Below, piece by piece: positions 4,935 through 40,861 of a stretch of 64,000 bases of DNA. The first letter of the stretch is position 1, and each line of letters begins with the position of its first letter. Location: assembly GCA_003170415.1 (NCBI GenBank), contig PMZJ01000027.1:62001-126000 (forward strand), given 5' to 3'. Below the pieces are notes generated by a model. It was not told the origin of the DNA. It searched no databases and saw nothing but the letters and a program-made list of their open reading frames with translations. Source of the DNA: Phycisphaerales bacterium. Lineage in GTDB: Bacteria > Planctomycetota > Phycisphaerae > Sedimentisphaerales > Anaerobacaceae. Made by a program: the position numbers and the translations under genes.

Positions 4935-5330
4935 ATGAGAACAAACAAGTCGCTACTTTTGTTTTGTGTTTTACTGGTCGGTGCAGCCGGCTGCGTTGAG
5001 CGCAAGCTTACCATCAACACAAATCCGGCTGGCGCACAAGTTTTCCTGAATGACGAAGAGATAGGCGTCTCGCCGGTGACCGCCTCGTTCAACTGGTATG
5101 GCGACTATAATGTAACAATCCGCAAGCAGGGCTGCGAAACACTCCAGACGCGTCGCAAACTACAGGCGCCCTGGTACGACCTTTTCCCCTTTGATTTCGT
5201 GACTCAAATCATCTACCCCGGTCGAATAGTTGATTCCCGCGTATGGTCGTTTAAGCTGGCGCCGCAGAAAGAGGTCGGCAGACAGGAATTGATTAAAGCC
5301 GCGGAACAGCTTAGCAAGCAAAGCAATTGA
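4935..5330 (+). CDS. PEGA-domain lipoprotein
   Basis: The 131-residue product starts with a lipoprotein signal, MRTNKSLLLFCVLLVGAAGC, with the lipobox A-A-G-C and Cys20 as the predicted lipidated residue. A PEGA-like beta domain follows (LTINTNPAGAQVFLNDEEIGVSPV), a fold often found in surface proteins. I chose the ATG at 4935 rather than upstream starts because it places the signal peptide at the N-terminus. The stop codon lies within a 20-bp perfect palindrome shared with the convergent epimerase gene. Its exact role is unknown. Confidence 0.75.
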   Translation: MRTNKSLLLFCVLLVGAAGCVERKLTINTNPAGAQVFLNDEEIGVSPVTASFNWYGDYNVTIRKQGCETLQTRRKLQAPWYDLFPFDFVTQIIYPGRIVDSRVWSFKLAPQKEVGRQELIKAAEQLSKQSN

Positions 5331-5345
5331 TAATCGATTATCAAT
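5326..5345. repeat. 20-bp perfect palindrome over two stop codons
   Basis: ATTGATAATCGATTATCAAT is its own reverse complement. It contains the TGA stop of the plus-strand lipoprotein (5328-5330) and the TGA stop of the minus-strand epimerase (5341-5343). It is AT-rich and has no classic U-run. It could end transcription in both directions or be a trimmed member of the ATTGATTATTGAT word family. Confidence 0.6.
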
Positions 5346-38017: not shown

Positions 38018-38169
38018 TGAGCTCATCGAACCAGTCGAACCACAACCGATAACTATATTGAAGCAGCCCAACATGATAGAACCTAATGACCGAAAAGTCA
38101 AACAATTGCGCCAGCAAGAACGTTGGCGGGCATCCTGCCAGCACTGAGCTTGTCGAACCAGTCGGAGGG
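38018..38169. repeat. Two copies of a GAGCTTGTCGAACCAGTCG-type word
   Basis: GTGAGCTCATCGAACCAGTCG (38018-38037 without the first base) and CTGAGCTTGTCGAACCAGTC (38144-38163) are direct repeats with three or four differences. They belong to the same style as the element inside dtd and look like dispersed intergenic sequence. Confidence 0.55.
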
Positions 38170-38290
38170 CCCCGCATGGCAGAAGACAGAAGGTCGTTTT
38201 GTCCCGCCAAGGTGACTGGCGGGGAAAGGTTGGTTTTTAAGCGAAAAATCGCATTTAGGTGCATTTGTCCGTAAAAAGCAAGTTTTGCTG

Positions 38291-38318
38291 TTGTATGTAG
38301 TATATATACTACATACAA
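38291..38318. promoter_or_regulatory. 28-bp perfect palindrome (AbiE region, site 1)
   Basis: A perfect palindrome centred on AGTATATATACT, flanked by TTGTATGT and ACATACAA. It lies 372 bases upstream of the antitoxin start. The core is shared with the sites at 38406-38441 and 38551-38578. Confidence 0.75.
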
Positions 38319-38405
38319 TAGGTAACTTTGTACTTTTCGCAAGTATAGTGCCTTTTCTACGCTTTAAAAGCTGTTTTGGTTGTAATGTGCCATTATTTAT
38401 TTATG

Positions 38406-38441
38406 AGCTATATGTGCAGTATATATACTGCACATATAGCT
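38406..38441. promoter_or_regulatory. 36-bp perfect palindrome (AbiE region, site 2)
   Basis: The longest of the three, with arms AGCTATATGTGC and GCACATATAGCT around the shared core AGTATATATACT. Its centre is 119 bases from the centre of site 1 and 141 from that of site 3. Confidence 0.75.
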
Positions 38442-38534
38442 GTGTAGCAATAGTGCTTAGGACTTCAAAATGCGGGATTTATCTGTGGCTTAAGCAGAAT
38501 TTACTTGAGATAACCGCTAAATTAAAGTTTTTGA

Positions 38535-38563
38535 TTGACAAAGAACACCATCTAATGTAGTAT
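38535..38563 (+). promoter_or_regulatory. Candidate promoter of the AbiEi-like gene
   Basis: TTGACA (38535-38540), a 17-base spacer and TAGTAT (38558-38563) match a sigma-70 promoter. The -10 lies within the third palindrome, so a protein bound there would block transcription. The leader to the start codon would be about 120 bases. Confidence 0.5.
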
Positions 38564-38578
38564 ATATACTACATTAGA
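38551..38578. promoter_or_regulatory. 28-bp perfect palindrome (AbiE region, site 3)
   Basis: Arms TCTAATGT and ACATTAGA around AGTATATATACT. It overlaps the candidate -10 box, which makes it the best operator candidate for autoregulation by the AbiEi-like protein. Confidence 0.7.
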
Positions 38579-38689
38579 ACCTTAATTTTTTAGTAAGTTT
38601 ACGACGATTGTATTCGAGAAAAATTGTAAGCAACACAAAAGGAGCAAAATCCGTAAAGTAAACATAGATAATGAAACGACTCATATCTT

Positions 38690-39565
38690 ATGGCAACCAG
38701 AATCCAAATAGCCAAACAGGACATTGTTAAACATTTCGACAATTACCCCAAAAAGGTCTTTGATAAAGCAGAAGTTAGCGATATTTACAAAAAGAATAGA
38801 GATTTTTGGCGTCTGGCGCAGTCTATGTCTATGGGGAAGTTCATCGACTTCCTTGTTAAGAATAGCAAGTTGAAAGTTGCTAAGTTTAAATTTCCCGGCC
38901 GGTCAATAATCAAATATACCTGGAGTGAGGTTTCCCTGTATCAGATTTTGGTGAATCTCCGCCCCAAGTGTTACTTCACCCACTATACAGCAATGTATTT
39001 TCATGAGCTTACCGAGCAGATTCCAAAAGTAATATATGTGAACGTGGAACAAACCCCCAAACCCAAAAGTGCGTCTCTACTCGAACAATCACGAATAGAC
39101 AATGCTTTCAAAGGACCGGCTCGTATATCCAGTAATATCACAGAGTATGCCGGCTACGAGATACGCCTCCTCAACGGGATGTTCACAGGCAATAACGGCG
39201 TAATAGAAATGCCCGGCCCGGAAGGGGAGGCACTCCAAGTCACTGACGTGGAACGCACACTGATAGACATAACCGTCAGGCCTGAATACGCAGGCGGTGT
39301 GTTTGAGGTTTTAAAAGCATTCAGAAATGCCCACCAAAAGGTTTCGGTGAATCGTTTGGCTGCGATGCTGAGAAAAATTAATTATACATACCCATATCAT
39401 CAAGCAATAGGATTCTATATGGACAAAGCAGGCGTTTATTCGTCTTCACAAATAGAGCTGCTTCAGAAATTTGATGTTTCTTTTGATTTTTATTTAGCGC
39501 ATCAACTTGACAGTCCACACTATTCAGCCAAGTGGCGATTATACTTGCCCGAGGGGCTTCAATAA
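38690..39565 (+). CDS. AbiEi-like antitoxin / transcriptional regulator
   Basis: 291 residues. The N-terminal about 80 residues (KQDIVKHFDNYPKKVF onward) look like a winged helix, and the middle has VTDVERTLIDITVRPEYAGGVFEVLKAF, the AbiEi-type signature. AbiEi antitoxins neutralise AbiEii and repress their own promoter by binding inverted repeats. Its stop codon lies 27 bases inside the toxin gene, which runs the other way. Three palindromes and a promoter-like sequence lie upstream. GC is lower than in neighbouring genes, suggesting transfer. Confidence 0.72.
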   Translation: MATRIQIAKQDIVKHFDNYPKKVFDKAEVSDIYKKNRDFWRLAQSMSMGKFIDFLVKNSKLKVAKFKFPGRSIIKYTWSEVSLYQILVNLRPKCYFTHYTAMYFHELTEQIPKVIYVNVEQTPKPKSASLLEQSRIDNAFKGPARISSNITEYAGYEIRLLNGMFTGNNGVIEMPGPEGEALQVTDVERTLIDITVRPEYAGGVFEVLKAFRNAHQKVSVNRLAAMLRKINYTYPYHQAIGFYMDKAGVYSSSQIELLQKFDVSFDFYLAHQLDSPHYSAKWRLYLPEGLQ

Positions 39566-40420
39566 ACGATCTCCCAGTTCAGCAACATAGTCAAAATAGA
39601 AATCGAAATCACGGATTTTTACCCCCGGCCTGATAGTTTGCTGAACAATTGGAAAATCCGCTCTATGCTGCTCCTTATAATCTCGAATTTTCCCGATGAG
39701 CGACAGTGGCACTTCTTTAGCGGAAAATATATTCTTACACAACTGAATGTTTTCAGGACTCATTAAATCAACACCCAAAGCATTAATAATCGTATAGATA
39801 TCAAAGAAATCTCTTGCCCGTCCTTCGTGGTGAGATTTTCCGATCTGGTCAGCATACTCCTTGGTTTGCTGGCAAATTGCCCGAAGTTTTTCGAAAGCAA
39901 TCATCGCGGGCGTGTAAACATAAATAGCATAACCTTTGATTTCCCGTTGAGTTTTGCCGAGGCAGAATTCAAACTTGCTGATGTCAATAGTGAATTTTCT
40001 TTTGTTGTTGGGTCCAACAATTTCAGCATTACGCCGCAAATCTGCGATATTACCTGCTCTCTGTTGATATTCCTCGCTCGGGACTATCTTAAACGCAAGC
40101 TCATAACCACCCCACCATTCCGGCATGTCGGCTCCGGCAATTTCCGGCTTTGGGACTAATGTCACATCAAATGCCTCATAACCATTTTCACTAAAAACCT
40201 TCTTCAAGTTCTTTTCTATCTTCTGGCGAACGTCATCGAGTTGTTCGCCATCAAAATCTTTATCAATTGAGAAATCCAAGTCGATCGACGCACGAGAAGT
40301 GATATTATATATGAGATTGAGGGCATTGCCGCCCTTCAAGACGAATATTTCCATGAGTTCATCATCGGAAACCATTGCCATCAGGGCCAATTGCTTAATT
40401 TTTTCAATGTTATCAGCCAT
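39539..40420 (-). CDS. AbiEii/AbiGii-type nucleotidyltransferase toxin
   Basis: 293 residues. The nucleotidyltransferase signature is seen as KGGNALNLIYNI (G30-G31-N32) with D47-L-D49 after it, then PAMIAFEKLRAICQQ and RARDFFDIYTI, typical of the DUF1814/AbiEii family. AbiEii toxins act on nucleotides or tRNA and halt growth; activity here is inferred. It is convergent with the AbiEi-like gene and overlaps it by 27 bases, unlike the usual co-directional operon. Its own promoter must lie at 40420-40600. Confidence 0.78.
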   Translation of the reverse strand: MADNIEKIKQLALMAMVSDDELMEIFVLKGGNALNLIYNITSRASIDLDFSIDKDFDGEQLDDVRQKIEKNLKKVFSENGYEAFDVTLVPKPEIAGADMPEWWGGYELAFKIVPSEEYQQRAGNIADLRRNAEIVGPNNKRKFTIDISKFEFCLGKTQREIKGYAIYVYTPAMIAFEKLRAICQQTKEYADQIGKSHHEGRARDFFDIYTIINALGVDLMSPENIQLCKNIFSAKEVPLSLIGKIRDYKEQHRADFPIVQQTIRPGVKIRDFDFYFDYVAELGDRLLKPLGQV

Positions 40421-40861
40421 TACAAATGTTCCTCAAATCTCACATACTTCTTCCCACGGGGTACTACGAAGAAAATTGTAGTCAAGAATAAAGGTCGATG
40501 CAAATGGTAAATGATGCGAGATTAAAACCCTGCCATACACCCCGTCACACGCCTTCGGCGGGGGGAATAAGAATTTATGATTTGAGAGAATCGGCCGCAA
40601 AGCACATCAGGCACCCCTCGTTTTTAGCGTGAAAACGAACTTGCCCTTCAACCCCTACACACAAAAAGGTGGGGGCAACAAGGGGCAAGTAGGGGCAACT
40701 AAAAAAATACTTATGCTGCTATAAGAAAAATTTGCGTAATTTTAAGAGGCCGCGAACATCGAATTTCCAACCCGCCGGCGGCTAAGCCGTCGCTTTACAG
40801 TTGTTTGCATAACTGTTAACATAACAGGGATTTATGAAACCAATTTTGTTCGGAGCAGATT
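40421..40861. other. Gene-free stretch between AbiEii-like toxin and polysaccharide locus
   Basis: No gene is supported. The stretch contains copy 2 of the dispersed structured element (40614-40725). Near 40777-40794 it also has a GC-rich stretch, GGCGGCTAAGCCGTCGC, of the same style as the element in purL. GTACTAC...GTAGTC (about 40480-40502) is a weak inverted pair. Confidence 0.5.
40614..40725 (-). repeat. Dispersed structured element, copy 2
   Basis: Read on the minus strand, this copy matches copy 1 (20605-20714) nearly end to end, from hairpin CTTAT-agcagc-ATAAG, through TTTTTTTAGTTGCCCC and CTTGCCCCTTGTTGCCCC, to AAGTTCGTTTTCACGCTAAAAACGAGGGG. The hairpin differs from copy 1 by one base in each arm such that pairing is kept. 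Confidence 0.75.

Follow-up and report, generated by a model that had tools for sequence, protein, structure and literature searches.

The window analysed here, a 64-kb stretch of a 2.67-Mb host genome, carries a toxin-antitoxin (TA) module that is best read as a horizontally acquired AbiE-type system of a distinct, mostly convergent subfamily. Perfect palindromes lie upstream of its antitoxin gene, and comparisons of related loci give good support to a constraint on the pairing of their arms. On balance, we lean slightly towards the view that these palindromes are operators, autoregulated by AbiEi and able to extrude as hairpins or cruciforms. The analysis thereby defines a widespread convergent AbiE subfamily. 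Our literature searches, which mostly did not extend to subscription papers, returned no description of such a subfamily or of covarying palindromes, and nothing that matched the core or cruciform operators of TA systems.

Family, layout and linkage of the module

A sequence-only reading had described convergent AbiEi and AbiEii genes that overlap by 27 bases, and strands and coordinates proved exact. The features of the locus are listed below, where hairpin energies refer to the folding of a single strand.

38110-40776: inserted module, approximate extent (~2.67 kb), two congeners lack it at the corresponding position, which is flanked by the iPGM and GT2 genes
38291-38318: palindrome 1, 28 bp, perfect, distal operator candidate; DNA hairpin -8.8 kcal/mol, z -5
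38406-38441: palindrome 2, 36 bp, perfect; DNA hairpin -15.8 kcal/mol, z -6.3
38446-38418, minus strand: weak promoter match TACACA-17-TATACT (consensus match), with its -10 inside palindrome 2
38535-38563, plus strand: promoter-like TTGACA-17-TAGTAT for abiEi (consensus match, 10/12)
38551-38578: palindrome 3, 28 bp, perfect, proximal operator candidate over the -10; hairpin -8.5 kcal/mol, z -7
38690-39565, plus strand: AbiEi-like antitoxin gene (PADLOC, AlphaFold, Foldseek)
39539-40420, minus strand: AbiEii nucleotidyltransferase toxin gene, 293 aa (Pfam, conserved motifs, Foldseek)
39539-39565: tail-to-tail overlap of the coding sequences, 27 nt (this length is found in the 5 family members, and 24 nt in many further relatives)

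Family matches in PADLOC and Pfam support the assignment to AbiE. The antitoxin was matched to AbiEi by PADLOC (6e-24); Pfam AbiEi_1 matched it below the cut-off and matched 14 of 26 relatives at E <= 0.1, and an NCBIfam search gave no match. Its AlphaFold model (pLDDT 93) has the N-terminal winged helix-turn-helix (wHTH) and the C-terminal domain of AbiEi. The wHTH fold resembles those of AbiEi and Rv2827c, which were also the best Foldseek matches (6y8q, 2e-7, and 1zel, 5e-7, respectively). The toxin is an AbiEii DUF1814 nucleotidyltransferase (Pfam PF08843, 3e-22) carrying GG, DxD and further conserved motifs, and its catalytic-type residues G30, G31, D47, D49, K178, R201, D204 and D207 are invariant across 21 relatives. 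Its predicted fold (pLDDT 90) was closest to TglT/MenT3 in Foldseek. The AbiE systems in the literature found are operons with both genes in one direction, and their imperfect 23-bp repeats are separated by 3 or 13 bp (PMC3985639, PMC7319586). The window pair does not form the co-directional bicistronic operon, antitoxin first, that is typical of the family, and because its genes are convergent with a 27-nt overlap, we filed it as an AbiE variant by layout.

Relatives were sought in the family, class and phylum, and in GTDB contigs, plasmids and viral contigs, which yielded more than 40 distinct loci. Viral contigs contributed one relative and the phage records searched contributed none; three loci (L027, L028 and L036) were omitted from several alignments owing to stops in the compared stretch. 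The convergent pair was found in Planctomycetota, Pseudomonadota (Burkholderiales), an Aminicenantes MAG, Bacteroidota and most Bacillota, so that the layout first noticed in the window is conserved over phyla. The antisense control suggested in the sequence-only reading would act through the overlap, which measures 27 nt within the window's family and 24 nt in many other relatives; it is widely kept, but a divergent Bacillota clade manages without it. In this clade, comprising S. aureus, Lactococcus and Streptococcus plasmids, the palindromes lie between the genes. In the tree, the divergent three form a single clade, and convergent and divergent loci together are separated from the co-directional planctomycete AbiEi (100/100). 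The AbiEi of the Candidatus Aminicenantes MAG groups with Burkholderiales, so a binning error or a transfer is possible for this carrier.

Two congeners have the same flanking genes and just a short stretch in place of the module, so the palindromes and both genes were gained or lost together, as one block of ~2.67 kb. The core of the palindromes, AGTATATATACT, occurs three times in the host genome, each time at the AbiE locus, and among 20 carrier genomes and plasmids nearly every copy is at an AbiE locus. Similarly, GNAGTATATATACTNC is present in 6 of 89 family genomes, five of which are module carriers.

A few sites were met elsewhere. One contig (G079 contig 215, 1721-1748 of L114) has a solo 28-bp palindrome, TCTGGCGTAGTATATATACTACGCCAGA, with no AbiE pair nearby and, close to it, an ORF that is TIR-like by eye. 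Another (G074 contig 175, 996-1017 of L089) has a AGTATATATACT core whose arms are 11 bp long; no AbiE gene lies within 1 kb of it. Two contigs of G038 (657 and 371; L007 and L090) both start inside apparently the same palindrome, which suggests that assemblies break there and that copies in draft genomes may be undercounted. At a contig end in G237 (L096, 2482-2623) lies a 142-bp perfect palindrome with three core sites, possibly an assembly fold-back.

Palindromes and promoters upstream of abiEi

All three perfect palindromes described in the sequence-only reading, which are 28, 36 and 28 bp long, were recovered in full together with their common core, AGTATATATACT. The 64-kb window has just one other perfect palindrome of at least 20 bp (20 bp, 5326-5345), and 203 kb of DNA outside the upstream regions has one of at least 24 bp. 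As the earlier reading said, palindrome 3 covers a promoter-like -10: TTGACA-17-TAGTAT overlaps it. The number of such matches in the region, 8 found against 6.5 expected, is not above chance. Palindrome 3 ends 111 bp before the abiEi start codon.

Nearly all intact relatives have one to four perfect or near-perfect palindromes of 22-60 bp upstream of abiEi, and such palindromes occur there in at least four phyla. Cores vary by lineage: most are AGTATATATACT, and others include CGTATATATACG, GGTATATATACC, ATTATATATAAT and GGTACGCGTACC. Sites in Hymenobacter and Burkholderia have centres other than TATATA and would extrude less readily. Only an imperfect palindrome was seen in L040/L097. One locus is a clear exception (L094, in G492): its convergent pair is apparently intact and its two TATATATA cores have no paired arms, which makes it useful as a natural control. 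The fragmentary copies examined (L029/L042 and L043) had no palindromes, and the co-directional distant AbiE loci examined (L009-L014) had no such palindromes. The annotation of S. suis HN105 shows both genes as short fragments, and this copy has lost both palindromes at 90% DNA identity; its relatives at 96-100% identity retain them. On the Lysinibacillus plasmid pFN9D (NZ_CP106866.1, 81 kb), by contrast, the palindromes are still perfect, even though the annotation gives both genes as split. On this plasmid the site cluster recurs six times at a spacing of ~13.5 kb, with four core sites each, which may reflect either a real multimer or a misassembly.

In relatives, the gene-proximal palindrome usually ends 8-35 bp before the abiEi start codon. 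The -10 of Bacillota frequently falls within its left arm, as in Brevibacillus (TTGACT-17-TATAAT), B. subtilis (TTGATT-17-TATAAT) and Veillonella (TTGACA-17-TACTAT). Proximal palindromes of Bacillota lie on forward -10 boxes far more often than in the shuffled control: 5 of 10 reach 10/12 consensus matches, against 0.39 with shuffled -35 regions. The proximal palindrome of Bacteroidota comes directly after a TAACTTTG box, and some distal sites (S. epidermidis, Macrococcus) have a reverse promoter TTGACA-17-TATACT. The promoter evidence from outside Bacillota and Bacteroidota is weak. The earlier suggestions of an AbiE-type pair, of palindromes linked to abiEi and of their operator-like position on a promoter are supported.

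Pairing of the palindrome arms

We took every AGTATATATACT core in the 700 bp that precede abiEi, which gave 44 sites from 20 loci; choosing by the core alone avoids picking sites for palindromicity. Complementarity of the arms was 95-100% at positions ±7 to 14 (28-51% after shuffling), 61% at 15 and near background by 19, and all four bases occur at ±11 to 14. In a second set, picked by the shorter core GTATATATAC (78 sites, 35 loci), 94% were complementary at 14 versus 64% at 15, with p = 8e-6; this and other p-values are nominal, as the sites of related loci are not independent.

At positions 11-14, left arms paired with their own right arms in 172 of 176 cases (98%), versus 91 of 256 (36%) when matched with right arms of other sites at the same locus. 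None of 20,000 within-locus permutations reached the observed own-arm count. This cross-pairing within loci rules out that the arms match solely because AbiEi and its operator sequence have co-evolved differently in each lineage. Among 89 palindromes with any core, which had been chosen as palindromes, 9 of 1,197 pairs were mismatched, two of the nine being G-T. A compensatory change was found at a homologous site, which reads TAAGG..CCTTA in S. anginosus and TAAGC..GCTTA in S. suis.

The most robust results of this test are the 14-nt edge and the contrast within loci. Arm pairing is conserved independently of sequence, as expected for cruciform- or hairpin-forming DNA. Given the complementarity, the within-locus contrast and the few G-T mismatches, pairing itself appears to be selected at the DNA level, beyond the sequence read by a repressor. 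An ordinary operator does not account for outer arms that have no common sequence, covary as base pairs and end at a sharp 14-nt edge, features that the sequence-only reading had not noticed. Base-pair covariation is a signal usually used for finding RNA structure; the present data are a clear case of it in DNA, in a promoter conserved over phyla.

Possible mechanism, alternatives and known systems

We propose that AbiEi would act as a winged-helix repressor that binds the core of each palindrome, about ±10 bp, and represses its own promoter, with the gene-nearest palindrome covering the -10 or the start region. The toxin would be transcribed from its own promoter on the opposite strand. Past the core, the arms of each site stay complementary out to at least ±14 regardless of the bases used, so that either strand can form a hairpin of about 12 bp capped by a 4-nt TATA loop and the site can extrude as a cruciform. 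Control of the antitoxin may then depend partly on a switch between the linear operator and the extruded form, or on hairpins in single-stranded DNA; we infer cruciform formation in the cell, and its signal.

A stronger form of this proposal is that the antitoxin promoter is switched by DNA folding, the operators being read both by sequence (the core) and by shape (at least 14 nt per arm), so that supercoiling or single-stranded DNA decides the antitoxin supply. We offer it tentatively and put its chances below even. If it were true, phage infection or plasmid transfer would be the situations that change supercoiling or single-stranded DNA. If the operators must fold, DNA topology or single-stranded DNA would be a concrete and testable trigger of AbiE systems.

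The main rival is a plain operator with repaired arms: AbiEi would bind dimeric sites on the linear core, and template switching in hairpins would copy one arm to the other, the pairing having no function. Quasi-palindrome correction is a known mutational process. It could add to the concordance of the arms, and it would fit the fact that some arms run far past the 14-nt minimum, to as much as 30 bp; published AbiEi and Rv2827c also repress via inverted repeats at promoters (PMC3985639, PMC7319586). Mutation alone would not be expected to produce a fixed edge, yet 94-98% of sites are paired at ±14 and 61-64% at ±15 across both core-picked sets, with few sites shorter, and the palindromes decay in the copy with truncated genes. 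The fixed edge thus speaks against template switching, which may have had a share in shaping the arms; as the whole explanation we consider it unlikely. More improbable still is that the palindromes act as RNA, either as antitoxin leader hairpins or as small transcripts, serving translational control or as decoys for a tRNA-acting toxin. The 28-nt hairpin does have a 12-bp stem, most proximal sites end 8-35 nt ahead of the start codon, and AbiEii relatives target tRNA acceptor stems (PMC10435456). An RNA reader would, however, tolerate G-U, and G-T makes up two of nine mismatches, about the level of chance. Moreover, several Bacillota have the -10 in the left arm, so their transcripts begin inside the palindrome, and no known RNA family in Rfam reached its threshold. 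The absent G-U enrichment and the promoter position thus disfavour RNA hairpins.

That the two genes are no TA unit, AbiEi being merely a regulator beside an unrelated neighbour, seems very improbable. AbiEi relatives are mostly annotated as hypothetical proteins, but the genes are adjacent in relatives, the overlap is kept over phyla, and both predicted folds match known TA partners. Least credible of all is that the palindromes belong to a dispersed repeat or a mobile element with no relation to AbiE, a possibility that the sequence-only reading had itself raised. The solo palindrome in G079 is in its favour; against it, the genome-wide counts place the core at AbiE loci in nearly every genome searched, which rules this explanation out, and the arms differ between sites while palindromes precede abiEi in at least four phyla.

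Among known systems, the S. agalactiae AbiE type IV TA (6Y8Q; Dy et al. 2014, PMC3985639) is similar in its AbiEi fold with wHTH and C-terminal domain, its AbiEii nucleotidyltransferase with GG and DxD, and its inverted repeats at the abiEi promoter. It is co-directional and bicistronic, with a 4-nt overlap and a single pair of imperfect 23-bp repeats separated by 3 bp, whereas the window subfamily has convergent genes, putatively separate promoters and one to four palindromes of 22-60 bp with covarying arms; the two AbiEi proteins are ~16% identical in a structural alignment. In a type IV system of this kind, AbiEii is toxic and AbiEi counteracts it without the two forming a complex. Rv2827c-Rv2826c (MenA4-MenT4) of M. 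tuberculosis (PMC7319586) shares the antitoxin fold (1zel) and has several upstream operator sites. Unlike the window module, it is co-directional, and its four 23-bp repeats, in pairs 13 bp apart, are read by sequence, whereas window-type sites lie ~50-270 bp apart and keep pairing, not sequence, beyond ±10. MenT3/TglT (Rv1045) is the best fold match of the window toxin, but differs in sequence (~16% identity) and in antitoxin layout.
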